NCBI RefSeq assembly: GCF_003581425.1
Contig: NZ_QXTG01000002.1
Location: forward strand, 682,001-746,000
Direction: 5' to 3'
DNA length: 64,000 nucleotides
Source of the DNA: Amnibacterium setariae
GTDB taxonomy: Bacteria; Actinomycetota; Actinomycetes; Actinomycetales; Microbacteriaceae
Shown here one piece after another: positions 35,160 through 43,167 of the stretch. A program made the translations under genes and the position numbers. Below the pieces are notes generated by a model. That model did no database searches. It worked only from the letters and a program-made list of their open reading frames with translations, and was not told where the DNA came from. The number at the start of each line of letters is the position of its first letter. Position 1 is the first letter of the stretch.

Positions 35160-35231
35160 GCAATCCAGGCTGGACACGCCGCCCGTGTGAACGGGCTGTT
35201 TCACTTCCTGAACCGAACATGACGGCGACTG

Positions 35232-35259
35232 CTGACACGCCCGAGGTCCTACGTAGGTT
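35232..35259 (+). promoter_or_regulatory. Probable sigma-A promoter of the sedolisin gene
   Basis: CTGACA (35232-35237), 16-base spacer, TAGGTT (35254-35259). It would start RNA near 35266 and leave a leader of about 40 bases before GTG 35306, which argues against the upstream in-frame ATG at 35219. Confidence 0.5.
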
Positions 35260-35305
35260 CGGCTGCGGCGCCACCCCCGACGCCGTGGATCAGTCAGGAC
35301 GAACC

Positions 35306-37231
35306 GTGCCCACTCCATCCCGACGACGCGCACTCGAGCGCCGTCTCCTGTCCATCGGTGTCGGTCTCGCCACCGCGACCGCCCTCTCGCTCACCGCGAC
35401 CGCGGCGCAGGCCGACACGCCGTCGACGCCCGTCCCCCACTCGAAGCCGACCTGGCTCTCGAAGGCGAAGCACCTCGGCGACGCGTCCTCCGGCGCGAAG
35501 ACGACCGCCAAGGTCTACCTCGCCCCGAAGGGCGGGGTCGACGCGTTGAAGGCCGCCGCGCTCGCCGTCTCGACGCCCGGCTCCGCGAGCTACGGGAAGT
35601 TCCTCACGCCGGCGCAGTACCGCAGCCGCTTCGCGCCCTCCGCCCAGGCGGTGCGGACGGTCGAGCACTACCTGCGCGCCGCGGGGCTCACGGTCACGGG
35701 CGTCGAGTCCAGCAACCGGTACATCTCGGTCTCCGGCGACGTCGCCGCCGCGAAGAAGGCGTTCGCCGCCCCGATCGGCCGGTACACGCACGGCGGCCGG
35801 ACGGTGCAGGCGCCGACCACGACGCTGAAGCTGCCCACCGGGATCGCCGGGCTCGTCTCCACGATCACCGGCCTCGACACCACGCCGAACCTCGCGCACC
35901 CCGCCGCGGCGACGCCGACGCCGCCGGACGCCGGCTTCCGGAACGCCCGCCCCGCCTCGACGGGCTACGGCTCGCTCGACGCGAAGTACGAGGCGGACTT
36001 CAAGACGCCGCTGCCGAAGTTCCAGGGCAAGACGCTGCCCTACGCGGTGTCCGGCTACACCGGTCCGCTCCTCCGCGCCGCCTACGAGGGCACCAAGAAC
36101 ACGCTCACCGGCTCCGGCGTCACGATCGGCATCGTGGACGCCTACGCCTCGCCCTACATCGCGCAGGACGCGTCGCGGTACGCGGCCGCGCACGGCGACG
36201 CGGCCTACCGCTCGGGCCAGCTCACGCAGGTGACCCCGGCCGCCTCCAAGTACGACCTGCTCGACGAGTGCGACGCGGGCGGCTGGTACGGCGAGGAGAC
36301 GCTGGACGTCGAGATCGCGCACGCGATGGCGCCGGCGTCGAACATCCGCTACTACGGCGCCACCGACTGCGACCAGGGCCTGCTCGACTCCCTCGCGCAG
36401 GTGGTGGACCAGGACAAGGTCGACGTCGTGTCCAACAGCTGGGGCGAGCTCGGCGAGCAGGACTCCGCCGACGCCGTCGCGGCGTACGAGCAGGTGTTCC
36501 TGCAGGCCTCCCTCGAGGGCATCTCGTTCCTCTTCTCCTCCGGTGACGACGGCGACGACGTCGTGGCGAGCGGCCTGAAGCAGGTCGACTACCCGTCGAG
36601 CGACCCGTACGTCACGGCGGTCGGCGGCACCTCGGACGCCATCGACTCGAGCGGCGCGCTGCTCGGCCGCACCGGCTGGGGCACCGTCAAGGAGAGCCTG
36701 TCGACCGACGGCCGCTCCTGGACCTCCGTCGGCTTCACCTCCGGCGCGGGCGGCGGCTCCTCGTCGCTGTTCAACAAGCCCGCCTACCAGAACGGCACGG
36801 TCGGCGGCGGCGCCCGCCAGACGCCGGACGTCGGCGCCCTCGCGGACCCGACCACCGGCTTCCTCGTCGGCCAGACGCAGACGTTCACGGACGGCGTGTA
36901 CTACGACGAGTACCGGATCGGCGGCACGAGCCTCGCGTCGCCGCTGTTCGCCGGCCTCACGGCCCTGTCGATCCAGAAGGCGAAGCACGACGTCGGTCTG
37001 CTGAACCCGACGATCTACGCGTCGAAGGGCGCCTTCACGGACGTCACGGCCAAGTTCCCCGACGCCGGCAACGTCCGAGCCGACTACGCGAACTCGGAGA
37101 ACGCCGCCAAGGGCATCCTCTACTCCGTGCGGCTCTTCGACCAGGACAGCTCGCTGCCCGTGACCGCCGGCTACGACAACGTGACCGGCATCGGTGCGCC
37201 GAACACGGCCTGGTTCTCCGCGATCAAGTGA
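35306..37231 (+). CDS. Secreted S53 family peptidase (sedolisin)
   Basis: 641-residue acid serine-carboxyl protease. A signal peptide (RRRALERRLLSIGVG, hydrophobic core, cleavage after ATAAQA) is followed by a pro-kumamolisin activation domain (about 50-200). The peptidase domain follows, with Glu E330 and Asp D334 in GEETLDVE, the SSGDDGDD oxyanion region, and nucleophile S542 in GGTSLASPLFAG. The usual calcium site would be in the Asp-rich C-terminus (DNVTGIG). The GTG 35306 start has GGA 6 bases upstream and lies downstream of the likely promoter; ATG 35219 is rejected. It is exported and probably used for extracellular protein digestion. Confidence 0.92.
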   Translation: MPTPSRRRALERRLLSIGVGLATATALSLTATAAQADTPSTPVPHSKPTWLSKAKHLGDASSGAKTTAKVYLAPKGGVDALKAAALAVSTPGSASYGKFLTPAQYRSRFAPSAQAVRTVEHYLRAAGLTVTGVESSNRYISVSGDVAAAKKAFAAPIGRYTHGGRTVQAPTTTLKLPTGIAGLVSTITGLDTTPNLAHPAAATPTPPDAGFRNARPASTGYGSLDAKYEADFKTPLPKFQGKTLPYAVSGYTGPLLRAAYEGTKNTLTGSGVTIGIVDAYASPYIAQDASRYAAAHGDAAYRSGQLTQVTPAASKYDLLDECDAGGWYGEETLDVEIAHAMAPASNIRYYGATDCDQGLLDSLAQVVDQDKVDVVSNSWGELGEQDSADAVAAYEQVFLQASLEGISFLFSSGDDGDDVVASGLKQVDYPSSDPYVTAVGGTSDAIDSSGALLGRTGWGTVKESLSTDGRSWTSVGFTSGAGGGSSSLFNKPAYQNGTVGGGARQTPDVGALADPTTGFLVGQTQTFTDGVYYDEYRIGGTSLASPLFAGLTALSIQKAKHDVGLLNPTIYASKGAFTDVTAKFPDAGNVRADYANSENAAKGILYSVRLFDQDSSLPVTAGYDNVTGIGAPNTAWFSAIK

Positions 37232-37321: not shown

Positions 37322-39406
37322 TCAGGCGTCGATGCGGTCGCGGTCCAGCGACGCCGAGTTCTGCGTGATGAAGTCCTTGCGGGGCGCCACGTCGTTGCCC
37401 ATGAGCAGCTCGAACGTCCGCTCCGCGGCCGCGGCGTCCGTCACGCGGACCCGGCGCAGCGTGCGGTGCCGGCGGTCCATGGTGGTGCTGGACAGCTGGT
37501 CCGCGTCCATCTCGCCGAGGCCCTTGTAGCGCTGGATCGGCTCCTGCCAGCGCTTCCGCTCCTTCTTCAGCTGCGCGAGCACGCCCGTGAGCTCCTGCTC
37601 GCTGTAGGTGTAGATCGGCTCGTTCTTCCGGTTGCCCATCACGATCACCCGGTGCAGCGGCGGGACGGCCGCGAACACGCGCCCCTCCTCGACCATCGGC
37701 CGCATGTACCGGAAGAAGAGCGTCAGCAGCAGCGTGCGGATGTGGGCGCCGTCGACGTCGGCGTCGCTCATCAGGATGACCTTGCCGTAGCGCGTCGCCT
37801 CGAGGTCGAAGGTCCTGCCGGAGCCGCCGCCGAGCGCCGTGATGATCGCGGCGCACTCGGCGTTGCCGAGCATGTCGCTGATCGAGGCCTTCTGGACGTT
37901 CAGGATCTTGCCGCGGATCGGCATGAGGGCCTGGTACTCGGAGTTGCGGGCGAGCTTCGCGGTGCCGAGCGCCGAGTCGCCCTCGACGATGAACAGCTCG
38001 GTGTCGGCCACGTTCGTCGAGCGGCAGTCCTTGAGCTTCGCCGGCAGCGACGAGGACTCGAGCGCGTTCTTGCGCCGCTGCGTCTCCTTGTGCGCGCGGG
38101 CCGAGATGCGGGTCTTCATCTCGCTGACGACCTTCTCGAGCAGGACGCCGGTCTGGGCCTTGTCCTCGCGCTTCGGGGAGTCGAACCGCTCCGTGAGCGC
38201 CTTGCTCAGCACCTGCCGCACGATGGCGCGGACGGCGGGGGTGCCGAGCACCTCCTTCGTCTGGCCCTCGAACTGCGGCTCGGGGAGGCGCACGGTCAGG
38301 ACCGCGGTGAGCCCCGCGAGCACGTCGTCCTTCTCGAGCTTCTCGTTGGCACCGACCTTGAGCCGGCGCGCGGCGGCCTCGACCTGGCCCTTCAGCACCG
38401 CGAACAGGCCGGCCTCGAAGCCCTGCGCGTGGGTGCCGCCCTTCGGGGTCGTGATGATGTTCACGAAGCTGCGGGTCGTGGTCTCGTACCCCGTGCCCCA
38501 GCGCAGGGCGATGTCGACCTCGCAGGTCCGCGCGACCTCGGTCGCCTCCATGTGCCCGTTGGCCTGCAGGACCGGGATCGTCTCGGTGAAGTCGCCGGAG
38601 CCCTGGATGCGCCACGTGTCCGTGAGCGGCGCGTCCGGGGCGAGGAAGTCGACGAACTCGGCGATGCCGCCGTCGTACTTGAACGACTCCACGACCGGCT
38701 CCCCCTCGCGGAGGTCCTCGACGGTGATGCCGAGCCCCGGCACGAGGAAGGCGGTCTGCCGGGCCCGCCCGGTGAGGTCCGCGAGCGAGAACGTCGCGTC
38801 GCGCACGAAGATCTGCCGGTCGGCCCAGTAGCGCACGCGGGTACCGGTGCTGCCCTTGGCCGCGCGGCCGACGACCCGCAGCGAGCTGCCCGAGACGAAC
38901 GGCTCGAACGGCGCGTCGGGCGAGGGGTGCTTCGGGTCGGCGTCCTTGAACGTGCCGGGCTCGCCGCGGTGGAACGACATGGCCCAGGTCTTGCCGCCGC
39001 GGTCGACCTCGACGTCGAGCCGCTCGGACAGCGCGTTGACGACGGAGGCGCCGACGCCGTGCAGGCCGCCGGAGGCCGCGTACGAGCCGGACCCGAACTT
39101 GCCGCCGGCGTGCAGCTTCGTGAAGACGACCTCCACACCGGTCAGGCCGGTCTTCGGCTCGATGTCGACGGGGATGCCGCGGGCGCGGTCCCGCACCTCG
39201 ACGCTCGAATCGGGGTGGAGCAGCACCTCGATGGTGTCGCCGTGACCGGCGAGGGCCTCGTCGACCGCGTTGTCGATGATCTCCCACAGGCAGTGCATGA
39301 GCCCGCGGGAATCCGTCGAGCCGATGTACATGCCCGGCCGCTTCCGCACCGCCTCCAGGCCCTCGAGGACGGAGAGATGCCGGGCGGAGTAGTCGTTCGC
39401 AGCCAT
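37322..39406 (-). CDS. parE: Type IIA DNA topoisomerase subunit B (ParE-type ATPase)
   Basis: 694-residue ATPase subunit. GHKL ATP-binding motifs: LEAVRKRPGMYIGSTD, EIIDNAVDEALAG (Mg-binding Glu/Asn), RGIPVDIEPKTG, GGLHGVGASVVNALS. The TOPRIM domain has LFIVEGDSALG and the metal-binding ILMSDADVDGAHIRTLL. It ends with the QRYKGLGEMDADQL motif. ATG 39406 gives the standard N-terminus. It works with the ParC-type subunit encoded at 32693; the intervening sedolisin gene is unrelated in function, and the two subunit genes lie on opposite strands. Confidence 0.92.
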   Translation of the reverse strand: MAANDYSARHLSVLEGLEAVRKRPGMYIGSTDSRGLMHCLWEIIDNAVDEALAGHGDTIEVLLHPDSSVEVRDRARGIPVDIEPKTGLTGVEVVFTKLHAGGKFGSGSYAASGGLHGVGASVVNALSERLDVEVDRGGKTWAMSFHRGEPGTFKDADPKHPSPDAPFEPFVSGSSLRVVGRAAKGSTGTRVRYWADRQIFVRDATFSLADLTGRARQTAFLVPGLGITVEDLREGEPVVESFKYDGGIAEFVDFLAPDAPLTDTWRIQGSGDFTETIPVLQANGHMEATEVARTCEVDIALRWGTGYETTTRSFVNIITTPKGGTHAQGFEAGLFAVLKGQVEAAARRLKVGANEKLEKDDVLAGLTAVLTVRLPEPQFEGQTKEVLGTPAVRAIVRQVLSKALTERFDSPKREDKAQTGVLLEKVVSEMKTRISARAHKETQRRKNALESSSLPAKLKDCRSTNVADTELFIVEGDSALGTAKLARNSEYQALMPIRGKILNVQKASISDMLGNAECAAIITALGGGSGRTFDLEATRYGKVILMSDADVDGAHIRTLLLTLFFRYMRPMVEEGRVFAAVPPLHRVIVMGNRKNEPIYTYSEQELTGVLAQLKKERKRWQEPIQRYKGLGEMDADQLSSTTMDRRHRTLRRVRVTDAAAAERTFELLMGNDVAPRKDFITQNSASLDRDRIDA

Positions 39407-39580
39407 GTCGCCCTCACGCTAGCCGCGGGCTGCGACACACCGGCGCGGCCCGCCGGGCGAGCGGCGAGCCCCTCGGAGCGGGGGTACGCGCACAGCGAAC
39501 TCGGCGGGAGGACGGCGCACCGTTGAAACATCCCCGTGCGACCATGGTGTACCGGCACGGCAAGCCAAGAGGAGGTCATC

Positions 39581-39814
39581 ATGACCCGCGCGAACGACCA
39601 CAGCGGCCTCGACTCCCTGGAGTCGCAGTTCTCGCTCACCGCGCTGGACCGCTGCGACAGCTGCGGTGCTCAGGCGTACATCCGCGTGCAGCTCGACAGC
39701 GGCGAGCTGCTGTTCTGCGCCCACCACGGCAAGAAGTACGAGGAGAAGCTCTCGGGCATCGCCCAGAGCTGGCACGACGAGTCCAGCCGGCTCCTGCAGG
39801 AGTCGAAGGCCTGA
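39581..39814 (+). CDS. DUF7455 small zinc-ribbon protein
   Basis: 77 residues from ATG 39581, preceded by AGAGGAGG at the right distance. The core RCDSCGAQAYIRVQLDSGELLFCAHH has two Cys of a CxxC and a C-x2-H pair, a probable zinc site. It matches the actinobacterial DUF7455 family, which is often found near sigA or a topoisomerase gene; no function is known. A candidate TTGAAA -35 lies at 39523-39528 with a poor -10. It is divergent from parE and ends before a strong hairpin shared with the convergent gatD-like gene. Confidence 0.88.
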   Translation: MTRANDHSGLDSLESQFSLTALDRCDSCGAQAYIRVQLDSGELLFCAHHGKKYEEKLSGIAQSWHDESSRLLQESKA

Positions 39815-39834
39815 GGCCTTCCCACCCGCTCCAC

Positions 39835-39872
39835 GAAGGGCCCGGGACCGCGTTCGCGCGCCCGGGCCCTTC
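39835..39872. terminator. Bidirectional terminator between the DUF7455 and gatD-like genes
   Basis: GAAGGGCCCGGG pairs with CCCGGGCCCTTC around a 14-base loop between convergent genes. Confidence 0.85.
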
Positions 39873-39884
39873 GCGTCCCCGCGA

Positions 39885-40610
39885 TCAGGCGGAGGCGAGG
39901 AGCGCGGTGCGGATGCGCGCCGCGGCCGCGTCGGCGGCTGCGGCGGTCTCCCCGCGCACCGAGACCGTTCCGCCGAGGGCGCCGGCGAGGATCGCGTCCG
40001 CGAGCGCCGGGTTCTTCGCGAGCACCGGGCCGTGCATCCGCGTGCCGACGATGGAGCCGTGGCGCACGCCGTCCGCGCCCCGCCCGTCGCCGATCCCCCG
40101 CCACACGGCGCCGAGCGCCTCGACGCCCGCGTCGAGCACGAGCCCCCGCGAGTGGTTCTCGTAGCCGACGAGGTCGCCCTCCGCCGCCCGGACGACGAGG
40201 TCCCCCGCCGCACGGGAGGGCAGGGGCTCCGCGACCGCGGGCACCAGCCCGAGGCCGTCGAGCCGGCCCTCGGGCAGCACGATGCCGCGGCTCAGCGCCT
40301 CGAGGCCGGTCCCGACCGCGAGCACCGGCACGCCGTCCTCGATCCAGCCCTCGAGGTCGTCCTGCACCTCGCGCAGCGCCTCGAGGAGCCGCGGCAGCAC
40401 CGGGTCGGTCGTCGAGCCGAGCACGACGGCGATCGGCGTCGAGGTCGGCGCCTCCCCCGCCGCGAGCCGCTCCACGGCGACGTCGAGGTGGCCGGCCCAG
40501 CCCGCCCGACGCGCGAGCACGAGCGCGTTCTGGGCGTCGCCGTTCACGTCGGTGAGCTCCGGGAAGAGCGCCAGCACCCCGCGCGGCCCCGAGGTCGTCG
40601 ACGGGGTCAT
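39885..40610 (-). CDS. GatD-like glutamine amidotransferase family protein lacking the catalytic cysteine
   Basis: 241 residues in the class I (CobB/CobQ-like) amidotransferase fold, paired with a MurT-like ligase. In the known MurT/GatD complex, GatD releases ammonia from glutamine using a Cys (C94 in S. aureus, in an AxCGGYQ-type elbow) and a His. Here the elbow is LAVGTGLEALSRG: glycine G100 replaces Cys, and the whole protein contains no cysteine. The His is kept in TRMHGPVLAKNP (H193). ATG 40610 overlaps the murT-like stop (ATGA). It is therefore unlikely to be a glutaminase. It could be a structural partner, or it could bind another amine donor. The family call is firm; loss of activity is inferred from the residue. 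Confidence 0.85.
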   Translation of the reverse strand: MTPSTTSGPRGVLALFPELTDVNGDAQNALVLARRAGWAGHLDVAVERLAAGEAPTSTPIAVVLGSTTDPVLPRLLEALREVQDDLEGWIEDGVPVLAVGTGLEALSRGIVLPEGRLDGLGLVPAVAEPLPSRAAGDLVVRAAEGDLVGYENHSRGLVLDAGVEALGAVWRGIGDGRGADGVRHGSIVGTRMHGPVLAKNPALADAILAGALGGTVSVRGETAAAADAAAARIRTALLASA

Positions 40611-41844
40611 CCGGCGAGCCCCAGGTGGCTGCGGGTGCGGCGCATGGAATCGGCAGTGAACACGATCGTCTTGATCCCCCGGTCGGGCTCGGGCAGGGCG
40701 AGGAAGTCGTCGAGGGCGCGCCCGAGGTCGGGCTCGATCCGGTCGACCGCGACGCCCTGGTAGAGCAGCTGCAGGGCGACCTCGTCGGCCTTCGAGCCGG
40801 ACACGATGCGGGCGCGACCGATCCGCGCGGTGTCGGCCGGCCAGAAGTAGGAGGGGTCCCGCACGTCGGACCCCATGGCGACGAGCACCTGGTCGAGCCC
40901 CTCGTCGAGCTCGTCGACGTTGAGCTGGAGGCTCGCGGTGTTCTGCACGAGCACGAACTCCACCTGCCGGCCCCGCACGGTGACGACCTCGCCGCGGCCG
41001 AACACGGGCGACATCGCGTCGAGCGCGGCGACGGCGGTCCGGGCGTCGAAGGCCGTGCCGAGCAGCTGCTCCGCCGCGGCGAGCGCGCCGGCGGCGTCGA
41101 CCGCGTAGTGGACGCCCTTCGCGGGCAGCCGGACGGCCAGCGCCTCCCCGCGCACCTCGATCCGCGCCTGCCGGCCCCGGACGTCGACGACGCGGGTGCC
41201 GGTCTCGAGCCGCTCCGGCGCCGTCGCGGCGTAGCCGAGCCCGCGCGGCGCGGCCGCGAGGACGTCGACGCTCACGCCGAACGGCACCACCGCCGCCTTC
41301 GGCGCCAGCGCCGTCAGCAGCGCGTCGTCGCCGTTCAGCACCACCGCGTCCGAGGCGCGCGCCGCGATGCGAGCGAGCATCGCCTGCACCTGCTGCGCGT
41401 CGTGGAAGCGGTCGATCTGGTCCGTCATCACGTTGGTCAGGAGCACGAGGCGGGCGCGGAAGCGCTCGGCGAGGCGGGCGCCGTGGCCCTCGTCCATCTC
41501 GAGCACCGCGAGGTCCGCGTCGATGCGGCCGGTGATCGAGGCGCGCTCGAGCAGCGCGGACGTCAGCCCCTGGGTGATGTTCGCGGTCGACGGGTTCGTG
41601 AAGACCCGCTTCCCGTGCGCCGCGAGGATCGCGACGAGCATCTTCGTCGTCGTCGACTTGCCGGCCGACCCCGAGACGACGACGAGCCCCTCCGGGAAGG
41701 AGGAGAGCACGTCGCCGAGGAAGCCGGGCGCGACGCGGTTGACCACGAGGCCCGGCACCGCCGAGCCGCCGCCCGCCTTCCGCAGGCGGGCGGCAAGCCG
41801 AACGCCCCGGCCGAGGAGCACGGCCGGGGCGTAACGGGGAGAAC

Positions 41845-41848
<4 letters not shown>
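40607..41848 (-). CDS. MurT-like Mur ligase family protein without the zinc ribbon
   Basis: 413 residues. The Mur ligase central domain has the P-loop [12 protein letters not shown] (60-70), [17 protein letters not shown] and [13 protein letters not shown]-terminal DUF1727 (MurT_C) region covers about 295-410, including [13 protein letters not shown] with the conserved Asp. Known MurT proteins have a Cys4 zinc ribbon inserted in the central domain; here that stretch (about 190-240) has none, and the protein has no cysteine at all. The usual KNPxG in the C-terminal domain reads QNTAS (302-306). GTG 41848 overlaps the sigA stop (GTGA). Canonical MurT amidates lipid II D-Glu; whether this one does is doubtful. 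Confidence 0.85.

Positions 41849-43167
<1,319 letters not shown>

Follow-up and report, generated by a model that had tools for sequence, protein, structure and literature searches.

The closest described relatives of the gene pair analysed here are the MurT/GatD isoglutaminyl synthases of Staphylococcus aureus, Streptococcus pneumoniae and Mycobacterium tuberculosis, which share with it a two-gene unit, the GatD fold and a Mur-ligase middle domain. Two further groups offer points of comparison, namely MurE and MurF, where the attack on an acyl phosphate comes from the amino group of a dipeptide or single amino acid, and the pseudoenzyme amidotransferase subunits, in which a catalytically dead class I GATase fold is kept for structure. 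Group B peptidoglycan is cross-linked through the alpha-carboxyl of D-Glu and is a long-established marker in the taxonomy of the Microbacteriaceae. In the available text of two studies, the D-Glu alpha-carboxyl is taken to be the group that canonical MurT/GatD activates (PMC6113224, PMC6085368), and changing Cys94 of S. aureus GatD to Gly or Ser abolished amidation (PMC6113224). As far as the available text of the second study goes, the S. aureus complex uses ammonia directly at pH 8.5, and this ammonia-driven amidation still needs GatD (PMC6085368). Among the matches listed from the open-access literature, we found no report of a Cys-less GatD in Microbacteriaceae and no enzyme named for the B-type linkage; a qim operon with an F420-0 ligase gene is described, with no tie to this linkage in the part of the source available.

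In Microbacteriaceae, the MurT/GatD-like pair with a dead glutaminase site (hereafter, dead pair) probably acts as a ligase joining an amino acid, likely a D-diamino acid, to the D-Glu alpha-carboxyl as the B-type bridge; we give this reading a probability of about 0.68. We infer the reaction because the Cys-to-Gly change is natural, the active site of MurT is kept, and a supply of D-amino acid is linked to the pair in relatives.

The window, that is, the whole stretch of 64,000 nucleotides of Amnibacterium setariae DNA that was analysed, encodes a GatD-like pseudo-glutaminase of 241 aa on the reverse strand (39885..40610), with an intact frame running from an ATG start to a TGA stop. The protein matches S. 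aureus GatD in phmmer (5n9m, 4e-17); in our own alignment, the Cys column of S. aureus GatD coincides with Gly100, in the elbow VLAVGTGLEAL, and the equivalent of the catalytic Cys94 is absent. The equivalent of His189 is present as His193 in the motif GTRMHGPVLA. The predicted fold (pLDDT 95.3) has S. aureus GatD 6gs2 as its top PDB match (TM 0.83), and Pfam GATase_3 gives 50.1 bits; the NCBIfam equivalog cut-offs for GatD are not reached (66.4 vs 450 and 45.6 vs 400 bits). ORF, alignment and elbow thus bear out the original prediction of a GatD-like protein with Gly at the glutaminase Cys and a retained His193. Its remark that the protein has no cysteine anywhere is true of the 241 residues and uninformative by itself, because about half of the 241-aa proteins here would be Cys-free by chance (0.54, from 4 Cys among the 1547 residues of rpoD, murT and parE). 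We dropped whole-protein Cys absence as evidence; judging by the alignment, the informative feature is the missing conserved elbow Cys.

The partner is a MurT-like ligase of 413 aa with a GTG start (40607..41848, reverse strand). Its stop overlaps the GatD start in ATGA (40607-40610), and its own start is overlapped in GTGA (41845-41848) by the stop of an rpoD-type sigma factor gene (41845..43167, reverse strand, named by sight), so that rpoD, MurT and GatD look like one unit by their arrangement. The dN/dS ratio against genome G001 is 0.15 for GatD and for MurT; against G004 it is 0.34 for GatD and 0.29 for MurT. Since the ratio is 0.15 and relatives carry the same glycine, a pseudogene and a sequencing error both fit poorly, and we ruled them out. 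The claim of an intact frame, coupled to its partner and encoding a maintained protein, agrees with the ATGA overlap, this ratio and the shared glycine.

In Pfam, the window MurT matches Mur_ligase_M at 50.6 bits (cut-off 24) and MurT_C at 21.2 (cut-off 25), and among curated models the two for MurT score best (98 and 69 bits vs 22-60 for MurC/D/E/F). Like the canonical complex, the window pair combines the GatD fold with a co-encoded MurT and has the P-loop Lys (in GSAGKSTTT), the MurT triad Asp (Asp349-equivalent, RDPSYF aligned to GRDxSW) and the HGP motif of GatD. Unlike it, the pair has Gly for the GatD nucleophile, a Cys-free MurT, GSAGKS rather than GTNGKT in the P-loop and a 12-residue motif other than KNPxG, and it scores 45.6-98 bits against NCBIfam cut-offs of 400-800 (98 vs 800 for the MurT equivalog). 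With no Cys in 413 aa, the Cys4 zinc ribbon is absent from the window MurT. This is not diagnostic, because the ribbon is also absent from most of the aligned MurT partners of Cys-bearing GatDs, and zinc-ribbon loss was dropped as a correlate of GatD Cys loss. As a class I GATase fold without its Cys, the window GatD resembles the pseudoenzyme amidotransferase subunits; it differs from them in that here the amine donor of the entire complex seems to have changed. The window genome carries a second dead pair (L204, G000:C1:1143000-1157000), with Ala in the GatD elbow and a MurT without Cys; by sight, it adjoins a fumarase-like gene, outside the slot described below.

Scanning of named genomes yielded 79 loci, the majority titled as Microbacteriaceae genera, with GatD readable in 77. 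The elbow Cys occurs in none of the 77 (63 Gly, 8 Ala, 4 Ser, 2 Asn), and the triad His is present in 49, the other 28 having something else, in one case an alignment gap. In locus L146 the sequence ends inside MurT, and in L121, from Naasia lichenicola, no GatD was found in the 3 kb after a type I MurT, which means that some loci have GatD elsewhere or can do without it. The region 3028-5704 of L121 holds a transporter-like gene after MurT, and an extra gene for 301 aa lies between rpoD and MurT. Of 22 GatDs in a first set (which includes the two of the window genome and omits four duplicate loci as well as L003 and L024/L025), 14 were without the Cys and 8 had it, three of the 8 belonging to families of the order other than this one. 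A second set numbered 50, ten rows of which are genomes already in the first; here the Cys was absent in 45 and present in 5. All four GatDs read outside the family within the order retain it. Among the matches listed in the order scan, whose split into 16 family and 202 non-family genomes was taken from the order of listing, the type I MurT profile exceeded 540 bits in 9 of the 16, and none of the 202 exceeded 404 bits. The family label of the host, f1, includes genomes with loci 100% identical to those of named Microbacteriaceae. The Cys-less GatD is thus a family-wide trait in Microbacteriaceae, and the suggested taxonomic link is supported: at the C94 position the alignment of homologues has G, A, S or N in 77 of 77 named relatives and Cys in 4 of 4 outside the family, and elsewhere in the order no Cys-less GatD was seen. 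Microbacteriaceae-type loci also turn up in records titled Acidobacteria, Planococcus and Auritidibacter (L152, L177, L151), which are possibly mislabelled or contaminated. In a family genome of 0.93 Mb (G032, locus L302), the pair follows rpoD and the elbow of its GatD contains Ser. The MurT matches of G064, G116, G063, G084, G030 and G111 have one in-frame stop or come in pieces, possibly through local decay or frame errors.

Dead pairs fall into several types. Type I, to which the window belongs, has G, A, S or N for the GatD Cys, and its MurT (set A1) has the P-loop GSxGKST in 13 of 13, followed by (S/T)xQxN(L/V)D. In type II, the GatD elbow reads LFTHNALEVLG, the triad His is replaced by Ile or Leu, and the position of the MurT triad Asp is occupied by Asn, or in one case by Met; the dead site seems to be under constraint, since nine type II GatDs have a mean column identity of 75% despite the lost residues. 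Type III comprises two genomes (G138, G069; loci L083, L084 and L252), in which a third, very divergent dead pair with the elbow FGTSIALFAR and a CofE-like gene lie in one locus. Families f56 and f35, which lie outside the class, have type II-like pairs beside carbamate kinase, the elbow containing Gly (for example LFTGNAVELLG; L115-L120, L200-L203). In a tree of 77 MurT sequences, type I forms a single clade (100/100), which midpoint rooting places within the canonical set, and a second clade (100/99) holds types II and III, the Asn variant and the f35/f56 relatives. Because the MurTs of dead GatDs fall in two clades, the GatD Cys would most simply have been lost twice.

Across 150 family genomes, typed by MurT profile scores, 107 have a dead pair, 21 a CofE-like gene without a pair, 14 only a canonical pair and 8 none of these. 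The 107 were called as 94 type I, 9 type II, 2 type III, one Asn variant (G011, dead by its Asn elbow) and one GatD alone (G114, dead by GatD alone); the GatD elbow was legible for 42 of the genomes called type I (94), for 9 of 9 type II and for 13 of the 14 canonical-only genomes, with Cys in the 13. Four genomes scoring within or below the canonical range (322-395 bits; G032, G097, G159, G111) were placed in type I, by elbow for G032 and G097 and otherwise by genus or position after rpoD, and MurT of G054 and G084 matched in pieces. Candidates scored per genome were the best 10-11 in the family scans, the best 8 in the order scan and the best 6 in the wider scan, so that an absence from these scans falls short of proof. 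With 43 of 150 family genomes lacking a dead pair, a single universal B-type ligase is ruled out; if the 8 candidate-free genomes are B-type, another enzyme must exist, because they have neither a dead nor a canonical pair nor a CofE-like gene. Cys-bearing and dead pairs occur together in five genomes (G003, G004, G070, G082, G139), three of them type I with a canonical-type pair besides (G070, G082 and G139, the second pair of G139 by score only). No MurT/GatD pair was found in 29 of the 150; murTgatD is called universal in Actinobacteria in the available text of PMC6085368. A Mur_ligase_M search of 15 genomes gave five places in the 12 without a pair and six in the 3 with one.

Among the 77 named loci that show rpoD, this gene precedes MurT by no more than 600 bases in 73. 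In the window, the slot (39407..41844, given without strand) is bordered by rpoD on the left and, on the right, by a topoisomerase subunit B gene (parE/gyrB-like, 37322..39406, reverse strand, named by sight only); it also contains a small ORF (39536..39814, forward strand), with kin called at 16 of the 21 slot loci mapped. Beyond parE, at 35219-37231 on the forward strand, is a 670-aa secreted serine protease of S53/kumamolisin look (by sight). The gene maps share the frame rpoD, module, often a racemase pair, small ORF and parE-like gene, and across the family the module is the type I pair, a second dead-GatD type or a CofE-like protein. The latter is often present where the pair is absent, usually with an ATP-grasp gene. 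It matches F420_ligase at 47.9 bits (cut-off 25), falls far short of the CofE equivalog cut-off (30 vs 181 bits) and gave zero matches in a PDB sequence search. CofE/F420_ligase (PF01996) is an amide ligase family and takes the same slot in relatives; unlike it, the window MurT belongs to another Pfam family.

In the 150 family genomes, a strong CofE-like match occurs in 0 of 105 genomes with a type I or type II-like dead pair vs 23 of 45 others (Fisher 6e-15, kinship not corrected), a weak match of G162 (141 bits, another contig) being excluded from the strong class. Pair and CofE-like states are both found within nine genus labels (g7, g9, g13, g68, g69, g87, g90, g95, g96), g90 being Agromyces and g96 Microbacterium judging by the named loci closest to them (78-85% identity). 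Another four labels (g48, g53, g59, g78) contain both type I and type II. Microbacterium slots alone may hold type I, or CofE and ATP-grasp genes with or without racemases. Inserts in the slot include a diaminobutyrate transaminase EctB in G073 (603 bits, cut-off 552) and MurJ in G100 (238.9 bits, cut-off 235.6). Among the canonical-only genomes, none of the 12 that show both slot borders (a count that omits G075 and G077, where they are not both visible) has a ligase-sized gene in the slot, and no ligase lies there in G035, G067, G136 and G161, which lack a canonical pair; the slots of G038/G078 did not come into view. The slot of G065 and G134 (L287, L290) is, by sight, an amino-acid ABC transporter-like set with no ligase.

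Within the order, CofE-like matches above 360 bits are confined to the family (7 of 16, among the matches listed). Weaker ones (153-193 bits) occur inside long frames in 17 genomes of f6, f12 and f18. In other families of the order we observed AsnB-type amidotransferases of about 900 aa with a CofE-like tail (L327:4737-7472, L328:1804-4467, L326:3859-6465), the tail reaching 24.1 bits in Pfam (cut-off 25) in one of the three; that of L326 starts MSGISG, and its glutaminase Cys may be Ser. Judging by these fusions, the CofE line may have had the same two alternatives.

Many type I and CofE modules are adjoined by two alanine-racemase-like genes with complementary losses. The first half has a K-x-x-A-Y-x-H-G site and no SYG motif in 15 of 15 loci; the second has SYG and no such Lys in 14 of 14, only the first half having been called in one locus. 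We take the Lys site and SYG to be functional motifs of racemases. Of 8 full-length racemases, our patterns found both motifs in just 5, while 2 showed only the Lys site and 1 showed neither motif, so that a missing motif is weak evidence; even so, by sequence the gene pairs of L242-L256 (for example L242:7793-9396) look like an obligate two-subunit racemase. In 47 hand-chosen genomes, more than one Ala_racemase_C match was found in 16 of 19 with type I, 8 of 10 with CofE only and 2 of 2 with type III (26 of 31 pooled), vs 1 of 8 with type II, 1 of 5 canonical-only, 0 of 2 with none and 0 of 1 with the Asn variant (2 of 16). A D-amino acid is thus not the common denominator, because 7 of 8 type II genomes are without an extra racemase. 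The window slot has no racemase, and a second full-length racemase lies elsewhere in the genome (G000:C1:863850).

Taking the pair as an amino-acid ligase, the MurT-like subunit would bind ATP and activate the alpha-carboxyl of D-Glu at position 2 of a peptidoglycan precursor, and the acyl phosphate would be attacked by the amino group of a cytoplasmic amino acid in place of ammonia. That amine would most likely be a D-diamino acid (D-DAB, D-Orn or D-Lys), supplied by the racemase where needed, and the product would be the B-type bridge residue. By analogy the proposed chemistry is that of MurE and MurF; unlike them, the window ligase scores best with MurT models and has a GatD partner. GatD, without hydrolysing glutamine, would be retained at almost every locus for its structural role or to position the substrate, and such a kept dead subunit is plausible because S. 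aureus GatD is still needed with free ammonia. Between rpoD and parE, the type I module, the second dead MurT/GatD type and the CofE-like ligase take one another's place. A wider scheme, to which we give an even chance, is a modular bridge locus in which amidating complexes became amino-acid ligases through at least two losses of the glutaminase, a CofE-like protein took the same place, and the split racemase supplies the D-amino acid; swaps of modules at this single slot would then account for the variation in B-type wall chemistry inside genera.

The behaviour of the S. aureus complex at pH 8.5 (PMC6085368, in its available text) also fits another reading, which we regard as improbable: the pair might still make D-isoglutamine from free ammonia, with GatD as a scaffold only, as the retained P-loop and triad Asp of the window MurT would allow. 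It leaves unexplained the exchange with CofE-like genes, the linkage to racemases and EctB, the canonical pair found alongside in some genomes and the loss of Cys in two clades.

The nature of the amine bears on a further alternative. B1 walls have glycine bridges, and the pair might add glycine, or a small L or achiral amino acid, to the D-Glu alpha-carboxyl, with a second enzyme, for instance the ATP-grasp protein, adding the diamino acid; the frequent ATP-grasp gene in type II and CofE slots and the type II genomes without an extra racemase speak for it. The published wall types, as given in the available text of the sources, are B2 for all five type I genera for which we have them, a comparison of slot and wall type that lies wholly on one side of the contrast: Herbiconiux is B2gamma with D- and L-DAB (PMC10011130), Subtercola B2gamma with DAB, Agreia B2gamma with L-DAB and D-Orn, Frondihabitans B2beta with D-Orn (PMC5945732), and Rhodoluna lacicola B2beta with D-Ala-D-Dab (PMC4156110), the Rhodoluna type I loci being from metagenome-assembled genomes. 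The diamino acid of Microbacterium is L-Lys, D-Orn or DAB by strain in the available text of PMC10757982. Because the B2 walls of type I genera carry a D-diamino acid, glycine is a less likely amine for type I, and the extra racemases in 16 of 19 type I genomes also weigh against this alternative, which we consider unlikely. The earlier idea of a repurposed complex handling a different amine is accordingly kept in part: the neighbourhood (racemases, EctB, MurJ and an interchangeable ligase) fits it, and glycine, one of its examples, is the less likely amine for the window type. Likewise, a simple equation of B-type peptidoglycan with Cys-less GatD agrees with the family distribution and the five B2 genera, and is weakened by the 21 CofE-only, 14 canonical-only and 8 candidate-free genomes and by dead pairs outside the class.

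It is very unlikely that the pair acts on a non-peptidoglycan carboxylate, such as a glutamylated metabolite, beside neighbours that are coincidental: CofE-type ligases elsewhere do act on F420 and the slot borders are housekeeping genes, but MurJ, EctB and racemases lie inside the slot, and genomes with a canonical GatD have no ligase there. A decaying, functionless paralogue, to which the lost active-site residues, the in-frame stops in the six MurT matches named above and the L121 MurT with no GatD found beside it might point, is scarcely credible given a dN/dS of 0.15, family-wide retention and the keeping of the pair in 1.4-Mb genomes.

For the bridge ligase reading, the slot between rpoD and parE gives concrete candidate enzymes for the B-type linkage. 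If it is true, a glutamine amidotransferase complex has apparently changed its amine donor through loss of its glutaminase, more than once. The content of the slot may then offer a predictor of wall type that can be read from the genome.
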